Shown here in pieces: positions 1 through 7,391 of a DNA stretch of 20,841 bases. The stretch is from a bacterium. Lineage in GTDB: Bacteria; Chloroflexota; Dormibacteria; UBA8260; Bog-877. The notes under the pieces are model-generated. The model worked only from the letters and a program-made list of their open reading frames with translations, searched no databases and was not told the DNA's origin. Numbering within the stretch: position 1 is the stretch's first letter; the number at the start of each line of letters is the position of its first letter. The stretch lies in NCBI GenBank assembly GCA_021817025.1, contig JAKAWF010000030.1, positions 1-20,841 of the forward strand. Direction: 5' to 3'. The translations under genes were made by a program, and so were the position numbers.

Positions 1-2305
1 CCATGTCCATGGAGACGTCCCCGACCAGCCGATGGAGACGGCCGCGGATCAGCACCGCGGCCCAGTTGGCGGGCCCGCGCCGGAAGCCGTCTCCGTAGCC
101 GACCGAGATCGTCGCTACCCGCATCGCGCGCTCCGCCTGAAAGGCATCCCCATAACCCACGTAGGTGCCCGCCTCCAGCTCATGGATTTCAACCACAGTG
201 GTCTTGAAGGAGAGCACCGGCAGCCGCCGCCGGCCGTCGGCGGTGCGCAACCCCAACAGCTCCCCCCCGCAACGGACCAGATCCAGCCTGGCGGCGGGCA
301 GATGTCGCCAGGCCGCGCTGCTGGCCGCATGCCGGATCCGGAACCGGTGGCCCGTATCCTCGGCCGCCTGCACCGACGCCAGCAGCCGGGCCAGCTGCTG
401 CCCGGCCGAGGCATTATCCTGCCCCATTCGGAAGTGCGTGTAGATCCCCTCCAGATCGACGTGAGGAAACCCTCGGGCTTGGGCCACAAAGTCACCAACC
501 CCAGCCGGTGGGATCCCCAGGCGGGACATCCCGGTGTCAACCTTGAGGTGGGCCCGGGCCAGTCGTCCGGCCCGCTCGCCCGCCGCCTCCAGCGCCCCCA
601 GCACCTCCTGGTCGAACACCGTCACCACCAGGTCGAGCTCCAGCGCCTGCCCGATCTGGCTCGGTGGCGTGTAACCCAGCACCAGACACGGGGCGTCGAT
701 TCCCGCGCCACGGAGTTGACCGGCCTCCGCCAGAGTCGCGGTGGCGACCCACTTCGCTCCGCTGGCGAGCGCGGTCCTGGCGACCTGGACCGCCCCGTGA
801 CCGTAGGCGTCCGCCTTGACCACCGCCATCAGCGGAACCGGCGCCAGCTCGGAGACCACCTCCGTCACGTTGGCCGCCAGCGCAGCCACGTCGACCTCAA
901 CCCAGGTGGGCCGCTGCGCGGATCTGAACCCGAGCAGACGCCAGCCGCGATCCTGGCGCACCACCGGGGAGCCGGGCTCGGCCAGCCGAGCGGAGAGTCG
1001 CTCCAGCCTCTGGAGCGCCGTTCCCTTCACCAGCACGGTCCCGCCGGCGGCGAGCACGGGCGCGGCCAAGGCCTGCGCCTCGCCCAGGCTGGCCACCGTG
1101 GTCACCCTGTGGCGGTTGCGGCCGCTGCCGTTGGAAGGGTGCTCCTCCAAGACCACGAGCTGGGCTCCCGCCCAGCTCCGCGGCCACGACCTCTCTCCGC
1201 TCACGACCGCCATTCGAGGTCCGGGCAGGTCTCGCAACGCCTCCTGCGCCAACGCCGTCGACTGGGGTGTGGCATCGACTGAGTCGTCGAGGACACAGCC
1301 TCCGGCCGCCCCCTTGAGGAGGGACAGCCGACCCGGCAGCGGTCCCAGCTCCGAGAGCGCCTCCAGGGCTGCGGCAGGCTCGATCTGCAGGGCCAGGAGA
1401 GACGCCAGAGCGGCGCCCCAGGCCGGCGGCCCCACCACTGGGTGGAGCCGGGCCGGCAGCTCCCACCGGCGCTTCCCGATGAGCACCAGGCATCGCCATC
1501 GACCCGGCCACTGCGTCCCCAGGTCCAGCGGCCCCACCTCGACGGTGGCGCCGCTGCCCAACCCGCCGAAGGTGACCTGGGGGTGCTCCTGGAACCGGTG
1601 CCGCAGCGCCGAATCCGAGCTTGGCAACACCACCGTGGCCCCGCCCGGGAGCAGGGCGCCCATCTGGTCGGCCAGAGCCGCCGGGGACCTCCAGTAGAGG
1701 GCCCCGGCGTCCACGGTGGTGGTGACGCAGAGCACCCGGGGATCGAGCATCCCGGCCAGGAGCCGCTCTTCCCGGCGGCTGGCGGCGGCTACCTCCAGCA
1801 CCAACCTGCTCGGATGGGCCGGCAGCGCCGCCAGGGCGATCGGGATTCCGAGGGAGTCATTGCGGTCCCCGTTGCCGACGACCCGCTGCCCACACTCGGC
1901 CGCCCAGGCGGCCAGAATGGCCGCTTGGGCTGTGCTCTTGCCAAGGCTCCCCCCAACCACCACCAGCTGGCCGCGCTCGAGCCGCCTCGCGGCCCACTCC
2001 ACCAGCGCCTCCCGACAGCTGGCGACCCTGACCACGGTCGGCTGACGGCCTCGCCACCCGGCCTCCGACCAGGGCACCAGACCCTCGATGGGCCGGTCGA
2101 CCAAGAACCCGGTGGCCCCCCGCGCGAACGCCTCCCCGATGTATGTGTGGCCGTCGCCGGTGGCGGTCCGGATCGCCACGAACAACTCGCCCCCTACCAC
2201 GTTGCGGGAGTCGTGGGCGATGGCGGTGAATTCCCCGTCTCCCACGGAGATCACCACCGGCGCCTGAGCGGCACACCCCGCTACAAGTTCGCCCAGCTGG
2301 AGCAT
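1..2305 (-). CDS. MurF-like domain fused to alanine racemase (3' end outside window)
   Basis: One uninterrupted frame from ATG 2305 to the window edge (768 residues seen). Residues 1-455 resemble MurF, the D-Ala-D-Ala-adding ligase: HDSRNVVGGELFVAI, P-loop GGSLGKST with Lys123, NDSLGIP, LEVAA with Glu171, DDSVDATPQS at 340-349, and VLVKGTALQRLE near 427. Several catalytic motifs of MurF are altered, so ligase activity is doubtful. Residues 469-768 are alanine racemase (L-Ala to D-Ala): PLP lysine 497 in AVVKADAYGHG, HLKVDTGMSRLGI, IYTHF, the catalytic Tyr718 (YVGYGDAF), SVGYGDGF, and the GDVSMDM loop. The start overlaps the upstream stop by one base. MurF-Alr fusions are known in Bacteroidota. 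Confidence 0.88.
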   Translation of the reverse strand, partial: MLQLGELVAGCAAQAPVVISVGDGEFTAIAHDSRNVVGGELFVAIRTATGDGHTYIGEAFARGATGFLVDRPIEGLVPWSEAGWRGRQPTVVRVASCREALVEWAARRLERGQLVVVGGSLGKSTAQAAILAAWAAECGQRVVGNGDRNDSLGIPIALAALPAHPSRLVLEVAAASRREERLLAGMLDPRVLCVTTTVDAGALYWRSPAALADQMGALLPGGATVVLPSSDSALRHRFQEHPQVTFGGLGSGATVEVGPLDLGTQWPGRWRCLVLIGKRRWELPARLHPVVGPPAWGAALASLLALQIEPAAALEALSELGPLPGRLSLLKGAAGGCVLDDSVDATPQSTALAQEALRDLPGPRMAVVSGERSWPRSWAGAQLVVLEEHPSNGSGRNRHRVTTVASLGEAQALAAPVLAAGGTVLVKGTALQRLERLSARLAEPGSPVVRQDRGWRLLGFRSAQRPTWVEVDVAALAANVTEVVSELAPVPLMAVVKADAYGHGAVQVARTALASGAKWVATATLAEAGQLRGAGIDAPCLVLGYTPPSQIGQALELDLVVTVFDQEVLGALEAAGERAGRLARAHLKVDTGMSRLGIPPAGVGDFVAQARGFPHVDLEGIYTHFRMGQDNASAGQQLARLLASVQAAEDTGHRFRIRHAASSAAWRHLPAARLDLVRCGGELLGLRTADGRRRLPVLSFKTTVVEIHELEAGTYVGYGDAFQAERAMRVATISVGYGDGFRRGPANWAAVLIRGRLHRLVGDVSMDM

Positions 2306-3549
2306 CAGGCCCGGGTGGGGTCCTCCATGCCCAAACGCACCTGCTCTTGGACCTCGACCAGCGCGTCCGCCACCTCGCTGGCGAGAATCCCGGCCCGACC
2401 ACGTTGCCGGGCCAGCTGGCTGCCCGCCTCTGCGTGCAGGAACACCGCCGCCTGAGCCGCCTCAAACGGCGGCTGGCCCTGGGCGAGCAGCGCTCCGATC
2501 AGACCGGCCAGGACGTCACCGGTGCCCCCCGAGGCGAGCGCGGCGGTCGCGTGGTCGTCGCTCCACAGCTGGCCCTCAGCCCCGGCCACCACCGTCCTGG
2601 GACCCTTGAGCACGACTGTGCAGGAGAGCTGGCGCGCCAGCTCGACCGCCGCCCCCACGCGATCTGCCTGGAGGGCGTCCACGGGCACGCCCAGGAGCCG
2701 GGAGGCCTCGAGCGGGTGGGGCGTCAGAACCGCCCCCGGCGGCACCAGGCTCCGGAGCCCGGCCCCACGCGCAATCGCGTTCAGGGCATCCGCGTCCAGC
2801 ACCAGCTGGCGGCCCCGGTCGGCCAGCTGCCGGAGGACTCCGCTCAGGAACTCTAGCAAGGACTCGCCATCGCTGAGCCCGGGGCCGCAGACCACCCCCT
2901 GGGCGGCTGCCAGCGGCGTGCTCAGGGCCGCGGCCGACAGCCCCGAGTAACCGTCGGGAGCGGAAGGTAGAGCGACCCTGATGGTCTCGGGCGCGAACCC
3001 GCCCTGACCGCCCTCGGGGCCAACGATCACCTGCACCTTGCCGGCTCCGCCGCGGTGAGCGCCCCGGCACGCCAGGACCGCTGCGCCCGGGAAGGCCGGG
3101 CTCCCGGCCAGTACCAGCACGGTCCCGAAGGTCCCCTTGTGACCCTCGTTGGGGCGCTCCGGAAGGCGAAGGTCCACCGGCCACCTGGACAGGAGCCCGA
3201 GCTTCTGAGCCGGGCGCGGATCGAAGGCGGCGACCGCCACCGCCAGCCCGACGTCATGGGACAGGCTCAACTCGAGACCCGGCACCGGCCGGCCGTCGAT
3301 CAGAACCTCGGGAGCGCCACCTGCTCGATGGGTGACCGCAATGCTGGGGTAGGTGGGAATCGACCGGCCCTGGCTGCCGTACACCTTGCGGACAGCCTCC
3401 TTGGCAGCCCAGCGGGCCGCCAGCCGCTCGGGGCGACCCTGGCAGTAGTCGACCTCCTCCGGGCTGAACATCTTGGCGGCAAACCCAGGCCGCCGCGAAC
3501 TCAGGCGGGCGATTCTCTCGACCCCTGTGACGTCGACTCCGACTGCCAT
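2305..3549 (-). CDS. Holo-ACP synthase / ADP-dependent NAD(P)H-hydrate dehydratase fusion
   Basis: A single 414-residue frame joins two enzymes. Residues 1-110 are AcpS, which transfers phosphopantetheine from CoA to acyl carrier protein: GVDVTGVERI with Asp6, LAARWAAKEAV with Glu51, and LSLSHDVGLAVAV. Residues about 125-414 are NnrD, which repairs hydrated NADH/NADPH using ADP: KGTFGTVLVLAGSPAFPGAA, VLTPHPLEASRLLG, VVLKGPRTVV, and GTGDVLAGLIGALLAQ at about 342 with the catalytic Asp. ATG at 3549 has GGAGG 5 nt upstream, so it is preferred over a TTG at 3576. NnrD is more often fused to the NnrE epimerase, which is absent here. The TGA shares a base with the next ATG (TGATG). Confidence 0.92.
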   Translation of the reverse strand: MAVGVDVTGVERIARLSSRRPGFAAKMFSPEEVDYCQGRPERLAARWAAKEAVRKVYGSQGRSIPTYPSIAVTHRAGGAPEVLIDGRPVPGLELSLSHDVGLAVAVAAFDPRPAQKLGLLSRWPVDLRLPERPNEGHKGTFGTVLVLAGSPAFPGAAVLACRGAHRGGAGKVQVIVGPEGGQGGFAPETIRVALPSAPDGYSGLSAAALSTPLAAAQGVVCGPGLSDGESLLEFLSGVLRQLADRGRQLVLDADALNAIARGAGLRSLVPPGAVLTPHPLEASRLLGVPVDALQADRVGAAVELARQLSCTVVLKGPRTVVAGAEGQLWSDDHATAALASGGTGDVLAGLIGALLAQGQPPFEAAQAAVFLHAEAGSQLARQRGRAGILASEVADALVEVQEQVRLGMEDPTRA

Positions 3550-3592
3550 CGGAGCCTCCGGCAGCGGGTCTGTCAAGTGGGCTTCCCGCCGC

Positions 3593-5425
3593 TCACTCGA
3601 CGGTCACCGACTTGGCCAGATTGCGGGGACGGTCGACATCGCAGCTTCTGGTCATGGCGGCGTGGTAAGCCAGCAGCTGGCCCACCAGGGCGTTCACCAA
3701 TGGGGAGACGACCTCGGGCACCCGGGGCACCTCGACGGTGAACTGCACATCGTCGACCAGGGACCGGTCGCCCTCGCTCACGACCGCCAGGACCGGACTC
3801 TGACGCGCGCACGCCTCCTGGATGTTGCTACGCGTCTTGTCCCGCGTCGCCGCCTCCGTGGCGAAGGCGATCACCGGCATGTCGGGCTCCAGCAGGGCGA
3901 TCGGGCCGTGCTTCAACTCCCCCGCCGGATAGGCCTCGGCATGCAGGTAGGAAACCTCCTTCAGCTTCAGCGCCGCCTCCAGGGCGGCCGGATAGTTGTA
4001 GCCCCGCCCCATGTAGAGCGCGCCCTGATGCTCTGCCAGCCAAGCTCCCAGAGGCGCGAACTCGTGCTCCCGGGCGAGCACCTGCCGCTGCACGTCGGCA
4101 ACTGAGCGCAGGGCCGTCGCCAGCTCGCGGAGGTCACCCTGATCCTGGGTCCGGCGCACCTGCGCCATCCTGAGGGCCAGCAGCAGTGAGCAGGCCACCT
4201 GGTTGACGTATGTCTTGGTCGACACCACGCAGACCTCGGGGCCAGCATGCAGGTTGATGACGGCGTCGGCCTCCAGGGCGAGGGTGCTGCCCACCACATT
4301 GGTCAGGCCCAGCACAAAACTGCCCCGCTCTCGGGCCAGCCGCGCCGCCGCCAGGGTGTCAGCAGTCTCGCCGGACTGGGAGATTGCGATGGTCAGAGTG
4401 GAGTCGTCGACGGGCTGGGGCCGGTACCGCCACTCTGACGCCACCTCCACCGCGGTGGGCAGTCCCGCCAGGTCCTCCAGCGCGTACTTGGCCAGAATCC
4501 CCGCATAGTAGGCACTGCCCGCAGCCACGATCTGGACTCGTTGAAAGCGTGAGAGCAGCCGATCGTCGGCTCCCCAGTCGGAGAACTCGACCTGGCCGTC
4601 TCCGAGCAGCCGGCCGCGCAGCGCGTTCTCCAGCGCTGCCGGTTGCTCGTGGATCTCCTTGGACATGAAATTGGGATACCCGCCTCGCTCGGCCTGGATC
4701 ACGTCCCAATCCACTCGCAGCACCCGGGGGACGAGTTCGGTGCCATCGACGATGGACGTCACCACGGGTCCCACCGGCGTGAGCACCACCATCTGCCCCT
4801 CTCCCAACACCAGCGCTTGTTTGGTGTATGGGATTACGGCCGTCAGATCGGAGCTCAGGAACCACTCCTTCTGGCCGACACCCACCACCAGGGGAGCGTT
4901 CAGACGAGCCCCGATCAGGGTGTCCGGGTCGGTGGAGCTCAGCACCACCACCGCGTAGGCTCCCCGCAGCCGGCCGAGTGCCCTCCTGGTCGCCGCCACC
5001 AGGTCCCCTGCGTAGTACTCCTCGATCAGATGCGGCAGAACCTCGGTGTCGGTCTCCGACTTGAAGGTGTGGCCAGCCATCTCGAGTTCGCGCCGGAGCT
5101 CGGCGAAGTTCTCGATGATCCCATTGTGAATCACGAAGAAGCGCCCGCTGCAGTCGGCGTGGGGATGGGCGTTGTCGTAGCTGGGACGGCCGTGGGTGGC
5201 CCAGCGGGTGTGCCCCATCCCAACTCGGCCCAAGATGTCCTCGCCGTCGATCCTGTGCAGGAGCGCCTCGACCTTGCCAGCCGACTTGACCAGCATGGGA
5301 GCCCCACCTTCACCCAGCACCACCACCCCCGCCGAGTCGTAGCCCCGGTACTCCAACCGCTGGAGGCTGTCGAGCAGGACGGGAGCCGCGACCCGCTCTC
5401 CCAGGTAGCCGATTATTCCGCACAT
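3593..5425 (-). CDS. glmS: Glutamine-fructose-6-phosphate aminotransferase (isomerizing)
   Basis: Makes glucosamine-6-phosphate from fructose-6-phosphate and glutamine, the first committed step to UDP-GlcNAc and peptidoglycan. It has 610 residues. The N-terminal Ntn glutaminase domain (about 1-235) has the nucleophile Cys2 (MCGIIGYLGE), HTRWATHG at 72-79 and HNGIIEN at about 100. Two SIS isomerase domains follow (about 290-430 and 460-600) with AAGSAYYAG, ISQSGETADTLAA, EVSYLHAEAYPAGELKHGPI and the C-terminal DRPRNLAKSVTVE. ATG at 5425 has a GGGAGG ribosome-binding site 6 nt upstream. glmM, the usual companion of cdaA-cdaR-glmS, is absent here. Confidence 0.97.
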   Translation of the reverse strand: MCGIIGYLGERVAAPVLLDSLQRLEYRGYDSAGVVVLGEGGAPMLVKSAGKVEALLHRIDGEDILGRVGMGHTRWATHGRPSYDNAHPHADCSGRFFVIHNGIIENFAELRRELEMAGHTFKSETDTEVLPHLIEEYYAGDLVAATRRALGRLRGAYAVVVLSSTDPDTLIGARLNAPLVVGVGQKEWFLSSDLTAVIPYTKQALVLGEGQMVVLTPVGPVVTSIVDGTELVPRVLRVDWDVIQAERGGYPNFMSKEIHEQPAALENALRGRLLGDGQVEFSDWGADDRLLSRFQRVQIVAAGSAYYAGILAKYALEDLAGLPTAVEVASEWRYRPQPVDDSTLTIAISQSGETADTLAAARLARERGSFVLGLTNVVGSTLALEADAVINLHAGPEVCVVSTKTYVNQVACSLLLALRMAQVRRTQDQGDLRELATALRSVADVQRQVLAREHEFAPLGAWLAEHQGALYMGRGYNYPAALEAALKLKEVSYLHAEAYPAGELKHGPIALLEPDMPVIAFATEAATRDKTRSNIQEACARQSPVLAVVSEGDRSLVDDVQFTVEVPRVPEVVSPLVNALVGQLLAYHAAMTRSCDVDRPRNLAKSVTVE

Positions 5426-5442
5426 GGCCGCCTCCCCGCGCT

Positions 5443-5476
5443 GTCGGCAGATTCGCTGCGGTTAACGCTGGCCGAC
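5443..5476. other. Imperfect inverted repeat in the cdaR-glmS gap
   Basis: GTCGGCAG at 5443-5450 pairs with CTGGCCGAC at 5468-5476 with one bulged base, around a 17-nt loop. The repeat lies within the 86-nt gap between cdaR and glmS, upstream of the GGGGAGG ribosome-binding site of glmS. It could be a leader structure. It has no T-run, so it is not an obvious terminator, and it is far too small for a glmS ribozyme. Functional significance is uncertain. Confidence 0.3.
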
Positions 5477-5511
5477 CCCGCCAGGTTACGGGAAAGTGGC
5501 CCGGGCAGGTC

Positions 5512-6501
5512 TCAGGGGCTCGGGCTCGGGGTCGGGGTTGGCGTCGGTGCCGGCGTCGGGGTTGGGGTGGCCGACGGCACTGGCGAGATGCTGACCACAA
5601 CCGTCACCACCGTGACCGAGGAGCTGACCCCGCTCGGGGTCACCAGGGCCACCTGCACGGTGGTGTCCTTGCTCAGCCCGTTCACGTTGACGGGTTGGGT
5701 GTCGAGCGCGGTCAGGCCCGCCAGGACCCCCGCTTGACCGGTGGCGACAACCGTCAGGGGAGTGGTCTGGACGCCGGTCAGCGTGTACCCAGAAGCAACC
5801 TGGCCAGTGACCGTGGCGAGGACCGCAAGGGTGCTCTCGGTGGTCTGCGAGGTGATCACGGCATGGACGGTCACCACGGTGGGCTGAAATGTGACCTGCT
5901 GGGTCAGATTACCGGTGTTGACCAGGCTGACCGGGGAGGAGATCGAAATCGAGGTTCTCACCGAGCCGAGGTCGACTCTCGCCTCCACCAAGATGTTGGG
6001 CAGGATGCTGGAGGGCGCCCTGACCGCGACATAGCCAGGGACGGCGGCGGTGGCGGCGTTGTTCACGCTGTAGCCGGCCGGGGGCGCCCTGGAGACCACC
6101 ACGTGGACCGGCAGGTTGGCTGTCTTCCAGACATCGATCACCACCAGCACCGTGGCCGGCCAGCTCCAGAGCACGAAGTTGGGATCGGACTTGGTCACCG
6201 TGAGCTTCACCTGATACTCACCGGGGCGGCTGATCTTGCTCAGGTTCACCGAGGCGAAGAGATGAGCCGACACGGTCGCCGCCCGCACCTGGGAGGCGAC
6301 CCCGGCGACCTTGATCGGGACCGCCTCGATGCGATGCAACAGCAGCAGGTCGGGGCTGAGCCCGTTGACCTGGACGGGCACGTCCACACTCGTGATGGCG
6401 GGGGGGTTGGTGGCGTAGACGACGGCGACCCACATCCCGCAGGCCACCACCAGCGCGATCAGCTTCAACCGCCAGTTGCCGAAGATGAACCGGGATCGCA
6501 T
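5512..6501 (-). CDS. cdaR: YbbR-domain protein (CdaR-like regulator of CdaA)
   Basis: Probable membrane-anchored extracytoplasmic partner of the diadenylate cyclase. In Firmicutes, CdaR binds and modulates CdaA. It has 329 residues from ATG 6501, which has a GGAGGGG ribosome-binding site at about 9 nt and lies 5 nt after the cdaA stop. A short cytosolic N terminus (MRSRFIFGNWRLK) precedes one transmembrane helix (about 13-32, LIALVVACGMWVAVVYA). Several beta-rich YbbR-like repeats follow, each with a P-V-x-V-like pattern (VDVPVQVNGL; NLPVHVVVS; QPVNVNGL). The protein ends in a Pro/Thr/Ser tail (ATPTPTPAPTPTPTPSPSP). YbbR identity comes from the architecture and the neighbouring genes. Confidence 0.82.
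   Translation of the reverse strand: MRSRFIFGNWRLKLIALVVACGMWVAVVYATNPPAITSVDVPVQVNGLSPDLLLLHRIEAVPIKVAGVASQVRAATVSAHLFASVNLSKISRPGEYQVKLTVTKSDPNFVLWSWPATVLVVIDVWKTANLPVHVVVSRAPPAGYSVNNAATAAVPGYVAVRAPSSILPNILVEARVDLGSVRTSISISSPVSLVNTGNLTQQVTFQPTVVTVHAVITSQTTESTLAVLATVTGQVASGYTLTGVQTTPLTVVATGQAGVLAGLTALDTQPVNVNGLSKDTTVQVALVTPSGVSSSVTVVTVVVSISPVPSATPTPTPAPTPTPTPSPSP
5515..5568 (-). repeat. Low-complexity Thr-Pro/Ser-Pro repeat at the 3' end of cdaR
   Basis: The DNA encodes alternating proline with threonine, serine or alanine up to the stop codon. The plus (template) strand is a G-rich tract. It has four runs of at least three G within 5515-5537 (GGGG, GGG, GGGG, GGGG, separated by 2-3 nt) and further GGGG runs at 5558 and 5564. 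It satisfies a simple G-quadruplex motif on the template strand. Confidence 0.8.
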
Positions 6502-6506
6502 GGGGA

Positions 6507-7391
6507 TCAGCCCCTCCCCGCCGGAGTCACATGGCCGCCATGGGAACTCCGGGCCCGCAGGCGCAGCATCCGGCGCTGGCCCTCGTACATCGGCAGGCGC
6601 AAGAAGGCTCCGATGTGGTTGGTGAGCGAGTCCCCATCCAGGCCGCTCTCGAGCTCCCCCCCGGTCGCCCAACTGAGCCTCCCGGTCTCCTCGGAGACCA
6701 CCACCACCGCCGCGTCGGTGGCCTGGCTGAGCCCCACCGCCGCCAGGTGGCGCGTGCCGCTGCGATGGGCTCTGGCCGCCTGCTCGGCCAGGGGCAGCAC
6801 GCAACCGGCGGCCACCACCCGCCCCAAGTGCACGATCGCAGCCCCGTCGTGGAGGGGGGACTTGTAGGTGAAGATGGTCTCCAGGGTTTCGGCCGTCAGG
6901 ATCGCATCGAGCCTGACCCCGGTGGCGGCGATCTCCTCCAGCCCGATGTCCCCCTGCAGCACGATCAGAGCGCCGGTGTGGGACTCGCTCAGCCGCAGCG
7001 CCGCCCGCGCCACCTCGTCGACCTCGCGACGGAGCTGGGCGGTGTCAGGGGCGAGCAGCCCATAGCGCAAGCGGCCCAGGCTGCCCATCTGGTCCAGAGC
7101 CCGGCGGAGCTCGGGTTGGAAGAGCACGAACACGCCGATCAGGATCACCTGCCCACCGTTGACGTAGATGAACTTCAGGACCGGCAGGTTGAGGATGATC
7201 GCGATCGCCCCCAGGGCCCCGATCACCAGCAGGCCCAGCAGCAGCTGCACCGCCTGGGTGCCCCGGATCAAGACCAGAAGCCGGTACAGCAAGAAGGTGA
7301 TGATCGCCACGTCGAGGGCGTCCCGCCAGCCCACCCCCTGGACCATCACCCCGAAGGTCTCGCCCAGATTCAAACCACCCAGTACGAGCAT
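6507..7391 (-). CDS. cdaA: Diadenylate cyclase, CdaA type (c-di-AMP synthase)
   Basis: Membrane-bound enzyme condensing two ATP into cyclic di-AMP, a regulator of potassium and osmolyte balance and the cell wall. It has 294 residues. Three hydrophobic segments lie at about 27-42, 48-68 and 80-92, ending in the typical FQPELRRALDQMGSLGR. The DAC (DisA_N) domain has the DGA motif at 182-184 (SPLHDGAAIV). The second catalytic motif reads GTRHLAAVG at 212-220, where the family usually has GTRHRAA. SEETG follows at 233-237. The start is ATG 7391 with a weak ribosome-binding site, 25 nt after argF. It is next to a YbbR-like gene and glmS, the typical CdaA neighbourhood. Confidence 0.92.
   Translation of the reverse strand: MLVLGGLNLGETFGVMVQGVGWRDALDVAIITFLLYRLLVLIRGTQAVQLLLGLLVIGALGAIAIILNLPVLKFIYVNGGQVILIGVFVLFQPELRRALDQMGSLGRLRYGLLAPDTAQLRREVDEVARAALRLSESHTGALIVLQGDIGLEEIAATGVRLDAILTAETLETIFTYKSPLHDGAAIVHLGRVVAAGCVLPLAEQAARAHRSGTRHLAAVGLSQATDAAVVVVSEETGRLSWATGGELESGLDGDSLTNHIGAFLRLPMYEGQRRMLRLRARSSHGGHVTPAGRG

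Follow-up and report, generated by a model that had tools for sequence, protein, structure and literature searches.

A degenerate MurF-like domain fused to alanine racemase in Dormibacteria

The window (the whole 20,841 nt stretch of DNA analysed here), from a lineage of soil bacteria, begins with a gene whose product joins a MurF-like half to an alanine racemase (Alr) half. Across the sequences compared, the degeneracy of the MurF-like half is confirmed as a real observation: the nucleotide-holding side is kept and the chemistry side is lost, as would be expected of a binding module more than of free decay. Judged by its residues, the half is very probably dead as a MurF enzyme. The explanation that best accounts for the whole is, with reasonable confidence, a retired MurF paralogue kept as the N-terminal domain of an alanine racemase in a regulatory or scaffold function; it is supported by purifying selection, an intact fold, the retention of ATP-side residues and the presence of a replacement MurF in relatives.

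RESULTS

The fusion gene and its neighbours

The following features lie in the window, all on the minus strand.

2..2305, minus: pseudo-MurF-Alr fusion gene, an open frame with 768 aa visible and its 3′ end beyond the window edge
941..2305, minus: MurF-like half, residues 1-455
2..910, minus: alanine racemase half, residues 466-768, with its C-terminus beyond the window
2204..2212, minus: N-domain signature D32-S33-R34, kept (E. coli D30-T31-R32)
1928..1951, minus: P-loop GSLGKSTA, residues 119-126, Lys123 kept
1793..1795, minus: Glu171 (E. coli E158), kept
1655..1723, minus: degenerate catalytic loop, residues 195-217, with G201 at the His188 site and M215 at the Lys202 site
1409..1447, minus: LHPVVGPPAWGAA replacing HNxxN, residues 287-299
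1328..1330, minus: Arg326 of LPGR (E. coli R316), kept
1265..1288, minus: DDSVDATP, residues 340-347, both Asp kept and YN lost
2305..3576, minus: acpS-nnrD frame (ACPS and NAD(P)H-hydrate dehydratase domains), 423 aa, directly upstream of the fusion

No stop codon interrupts the 768-aa frame before the window edge (window 2-2305), and the 18 fused relatives, all full length, have 809-842 aa. The first-pass annotation had located the degenerate region at 1262-1960; these coordinates correspond to residues 116-348 of the frame, and every motif that it quoted is present in the window translation. The Alr half, whose PLP-Lys site is K497, retains the motifs of the catalytic Lys and Tyr (VVKADAYGHG and VGYGDGF by alignment with E. 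coli Alr) and, although truncated, scores as an alanine racemase with TIGR00492 (239 bits versus a cut-off of 168).

The acpS-nnrD frame matches Pfam ACPS (46.8 bits) and Carb_kinase (166.1 bits), its TGA overlaps the ATG of the fusion (TGATG), and the same gene order is found in loci L001 and L121-L123. Window positions 3593-7391, also on the minus strand, hold consecutive frames of the DAC (cyclic-di-AMP cyclase), YbbR and SIS/glutamine-amidotransferase (glmS-like) types by Pfam.

Residues kept and lost in the MurF half

Residues were mapped by aligning the window protein with E. coli MurF. Lys111 (K123 in the window), Glu158 (E171), Arg316 (R326) and Asp330/331 (D340/D341) are kept; His188 (G201), Lys202 (M215), His281/Asn282 (V291/G292) and Tyr333-Asn334 (V343-D344) are lost. 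The annotation's reading is confirmed: the P-loop and the metal-binding Glu remain, a Lys is missing at what we take to be the carbamylated position (202 in E. coli MurF), the HN motif is replaced from residue 287, and YNANP has become VDATP. The HN motif presumably forms the adenine side of the Mur ligase site; since it is also lost, ATP binding by the MurF half may be weak. H288 in LHPVVG does not correspond to the catalytic His. In all Mur ligases a Mg ion is coordinated by a conserved His; uridine is bound by the N-terminal domain, and asparagines of MurT are assigned to adenine (PMC6085368).

The three-domain Mur ligase fold is intact. In the window protein, Pfam places the N domain above its cut-off and the C domain slightly below, and the middle domain is undetected. 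The MurF family model TIGR01143 gives 105.9 bits, short of its curated cut-off of 288.6, and the range is 85.9-128 bits for five proteins when four Dormibacterota-type relatives are included; this cut-off is strict, being passed in 9 of 14 known genomes that served as control.

The same losses in Dormibacterota-type fusions

An alignment of Dormibacterota-type fusions comprised 42 rows (the window, P0001-P0018, P0159-P0170 and 11 genome loci, leaving out the fragment P0158), some of which are one protein reached twice and few of which carry an organism name. The class is taken here as Dormibacteria and the phylum group as Chloroflexota; fusion proteins P0008, P0014, P0018 and P0168 are named Dormibacteria or Dormibacteraeota. 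K111, E158, R316 and D330-D331 are each present in 42/42 rows, while H188 and K202 are each present in 0/42. The Lys202 site is hydrophobic throughout (L, V, M, A, F or W). Further, in 12 rows read after DD[ST], neither the Y nor the N of the YNAN motif occurs once (VDAT in the window), and the D and R of the N-domain signature are kept in all 12 rows formed by the window and the 11 class genome loci. The replacing residues are largely conserved among themselves (G/D-D-x-ND, DA..LYW and DD[ST].D). Aligned standalone MurFs of the same class keep both H and K in 19/19 rows. The recurrence of the same losses across the 42 rows excludes sequencing error as their source.

Selection on the MurF half

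Nei-Gojobori dN/dS values were compared among the 23 pairs listed, whose MurF halves are more than 60% identical and which are not independent of each other. The MurF half ranges from 0.229 to 0.409 and the Alr half from 0.091 to 0.193, with the MurF-half value higher in 23/23 pairs by a factor of 1.3 to 4.1. Values far below 1, yet above those of Alr, indicate that the MurF half is under purifying selection that is weaker than on the racemase. The annotation's broader proposal, an inactive or repurposed ligase, appears well supported by the residues, the family scores and this selection.

A non-functional relic, or a folding or solubility appendage tolerated on the racemase, is rather unlikely. 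The relaxed selection relative to Alr fits such a weakly constrained appendage, many residues are lost, and at least one class genome without the fusion (G002, locus L002) has a plain unfused alr, making the MurF-like domain dispensable there; it fits poorly with a dN/dS far below 1, with ATP-side residues kept in every one of the 42 rows, and with 18 fused relatives that are all full length.

The MurF step within the class

The class set consists of 110 genomes in the class group of G001 (whose locus L001 carries the complete fusion), their completeness unstated, which were sorted by reading match tables at E <= 1e-30 with a membrane-type MurF (L055) and an ordinary MurF (L036) as queries. 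The fused half is found in 12 genomes (11 plus G049, where only its last residues remain at a contig end), membrane-type MurF in 35 (G021, G022 and G031 by partial matches), ordinary MurF in 72 (in some cases, such as G071 and G084, from fragments), and neither MurF type in three (G011, G032 and G107). The two types occur together in 0/110 genomes. All 12 fusion genomes fall within the 35 with membrane-type MurF, and the other 23 of these show no fusion. Ordinary-MurF genomes with a long murF frame were considered as hidden fusions, and no Alr was found in G007, G101, G027, G016, G018, G052, G064 or G061. G007 also has a second MurF-like frame of 548 aa (C13, 20988-22076) besides its ordinary dcw murF, without a match to the membrane-type query at 1e-30.

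A separate murF had been predicted, and relatives do contain one, in an unexpected form: a MurF-like protein, anchored in the membrane, in which the catalytic residues are retained (His in 15/15, Lys in 14/15 and YN in 15/15 rows). In the two proteins scanned it comprises the Mur middle and C-terminal domains and has no N-terminal Mur domain; in one protein, two strong hydrophobic segments precede the Mur domains. An ordinary murF was not found. In particular, no protein in the 12 class fusion genomes exceeds the TIGR01143 cut-off, itself passed in 9 of 14 control genomes, and the best matches (188-223 bits) are the membrane-type proteins, aligned from profile position 56-68 onward. A canonical three-domain MurF elsewhere in these genomes was accordingly rejected, neither TIGR01143 nor the class murF query having found one.

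Gene order agrees with this. Where both neighbours lie in the stretch, ordinary-MurF genomes have the order ftsI-murF-mraY in 10/10 cases (L114-L117, L287 and L289-L293); in L288, murF and mraY are adjacent, and the stretch gave no match to ftsI. Among the nine membrane-MurF genomes examined, six with the fusion (G001, G036, G045, G047, G049 and G050) and three without (G002, G005 and G033), no murF lies between ftsI and mraY in 9/9, and the two frames overlap, which argues against a mere assembly gap. For MraY, the 12 genomes gave no match to the signature family PF10555 and did match the full MraY model. The membrane-type gene is directly followed by ddl in 5/7 copies from fusion genomes and G002 (L107-L109, L111 and L125, not L110 or L124), and in G033 and G005 it is flanked by ddl and ftsA within the dcw cluster.

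Other features of these genomes were observed. G001, G047 and G050 each have two membrane-type MurF copies, the second of which in G001 (L124) and G047 (L110) has no adjoining ddl match. The dcw cluster of the six fusion genomes examined and of G002 shows no murD match in the interval from mraY to ftsW (L278, L279 and L282-L286); G033 and G005 (L280 and L281) keep murD at this position, and in G001 a murD-like frame, read by eye, lies at another place (L009).

MurF-Alr fusions across the phylum

An Alr-half query with a length filter favouring fusions returned many MurF-Alr fusions among the matches listed (120 of 903); outside the Dormibacterota type, the few organism names among the matches listed are Anaerolineae or Chloroflexi, with one partial Chthonomonadales protein. 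Both halves matched in one frame is a common arrangement in 400 sampled phylum-group genomes, among the matches listed. The view of the fusion as a singular oddity is thus not borne out, as the phylum has many such fusions, most of them degenerate.

Ninety-two fusions from outside the class were fetched from the matches listed. They keep K111 in 92, E158 in 91, R316 in 91 and D330 in 92 cases, and the N-domain residues D30, R32 and F40 in 91, 90 and 92. The catalytic residues are far less frequent: H188 in 44, K202 in 23, both in 23, and H, K and YN together in 3; allowing +/-2 positions gives 45 with His, 27 with Lys and 24 with both. TIGR01143 scores form a gradient, from P0179 (339.7 bits) through P0197 (288.6) and P0172 (201.5) to the five Dormibacterota-type proteins. 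In a quick tree, the 12 class fused halves (the window and 11 loci) form one firm clade (support 1.0). A single origin of all MurF-Alr fusions was not accepted: the 104 fused halves group together in the same tree with a support of only 0.179. Separately, G148 (C8) and G291 (C6) each carry a murF-type frame at most ~4 kb from the MurF-Alr gene, which would fit an origin by tandem duplication.

For 80 of the 92 genomes with these fusions the match tables were read for a separate MurF-type frame, and 76 have one, of membrane type in 7 and ordinary type in 69. Degeneration of the fused half thus extends through the phylum and is not tied to the membrane MurF; displacement by the membrane MurF as a general cause of decay was therefore rejected, most other fusions being degenerate beside an ordinary-type MurF. 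A separate MurF was unseen in G331, G304, G178 and G223, whose completeness is unstated. In the first three, the fused half has lost His, Lys or both, and that of G223 is one of the three keeping H, K and YN.

Loss of Lys202 was rejected as sole proof of inactivity, as Glu occupies this site in 4/26 standalone MurFs of the phylum. With MurT working without its His, neither the His nor the Lys loss proves inactivity by itself. The four standalone proteins (L232, L242, L245 and L254) have Glu at the carbamylated-Lys site and keep the His, and the Glu may be a carboxylate substitute.

Retained ligase activity of the MurF half is unlikely, be it as a MurF working by altered chemistry or as an amino-acid ligase that uses the retained ATP site on a new substrate. 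In its favour, the P-loop, Glu, Arg and Asp-Asp residues are fully conserved (42/42 rows), the replacement motifs are largely conserved, purifying selection acts on the half, no separate MurF was seen in three genomes whose fused half is degenerate, and MurT is active without the His (PMC6085368). Against this, both catalytic residues, HN and YN are lost jointly with a hydrophobic residue at the Lys site, and the class fusion genomes contain a MurF-type protein with catalytic residues.

A two-protein MurF, in which the fused half would provide in trans the UDP-MurNAc-tripeptide site that the membrane MurF lacks, is very improbable. For it speak the kept N-domain signature, the absence of a Mur ligase N domain from the two membrane MurFs scanned and the presence of the membrane MurF in 12/12 class fusion genomes; against it, the 23 of 35 membrane-MurF genomes without a fusion imply that the membrane MurF must work alone there, and 69/80 other fusion genomes have an ordinary-type separate MurF.

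DISCUSSION

Comparison with known systems

The architecture is already known to databases, as NCBIfam NF008897 (PRK11930, bifunctional MurF/alanine racemase), which has the same architecture as the window fusion, and as the 'Alr-MurF fusion protein'. NF008897 is, we assume, the Bacteroidota type. It gives 225.7 bits on the truncated window protein against a cut-off of 804, with the best stretch in the Alr half, and 268.7-310.3 bits on four complete relatives; even the intact-looking P0179 scores 444.5, so the cut-off seems suited to another lineage. Among the titles listed by a literature search, none was about a MurF-Alr fusion, and the search found no paper on its degeneracy.

MurF-Alr fusions elsewhere in the phylum have the same domain order and a similar length (812-965 aa when complete), and many are degenerate too; P0191 and P0200 are named 'Alr-MurF fusion protein' in JGI, and P0177, P0201 and P0206 are examples with Anaerolineae/Chloroflexi names. 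Some other fusions of the phylum keep His, Lys and YN and pass the murF cut-off (P0179), whereas the Dormibacterota type is uniformly without His and Lys. With MurF itself (TIGR01143; structures 1gg4, 4cvm and 4qf5), the window half shares the fold and the ATP-side residues; unlike MurF, it has no catalytic His, Lys, HN or YN.

Two further Mur ligase relatives are informative. PAP11, the MurE-like plastid RNA polymerase subunit, is among the sequence and fold matches and is a precedent for a Mur ligase homologue that has come to serve in a different complex (PMC12681378); unlike the window half, it is a MurE relative with no relation to alanine racemase. MurT of MurT/GatD is a Mur-type ligase without the catalytic His, as is the window half, and is active despite this absence (PMC6085368). 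MurT acts on lipid II with its partner GatD and is closer to the membrane MurF than to the fused half.

A possible role for the MurF half

A regulatory or scaffold role of the MurF half is slightly favoured. As a retired paralogue on the racemase, the half would bind ATP-Mg, and perhaps UDP-MurNAc-tripeptide, without ligating them; its open or closed state, or its binding to Ddl or to the membrane MurF, might tune or localise the racemase, so that D-alanine supply would follow what the D-Ala-D-Ala branch requires. A separate MurF-type protein, the membrane-anchored one in the nearest genomes, would carry out the MurF step. A more specific version is considerably less likely: a sensor of ATP and UDP-MurNAc-tripeptide would set Alr allosterically, coupling D-alanine to the pool of MurF substrate, with the MurF step moved to a Ddl-paired membrane MurF without a UDP domain, possibly acting on a lipid-linked precursor as MurT does.

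The label of a 'two-in-one enzyme' is probably wrong for the fusion, because the MurF half has lost its catalytic residues and a separate protein appears to perform the MurF step. Overall, by residue counts, most of the fusions sampled in the phylum probably do not work as ordinary MurF enzymes, and reconstructing the pathway with the fusion in the MurF role may therefore be mistaken. The combination of conserved ATP-side residues and lost chemistry gives a concrete case, open to testing, in which a ligase of wall synthesis would have become a regulator or scaffold. Moreover, the two MurF types, ordinary and membrane-anchored without a UDP domain, exclude each other among the class genomes, which points to a nearly universal enzyme having been replaced within one class.
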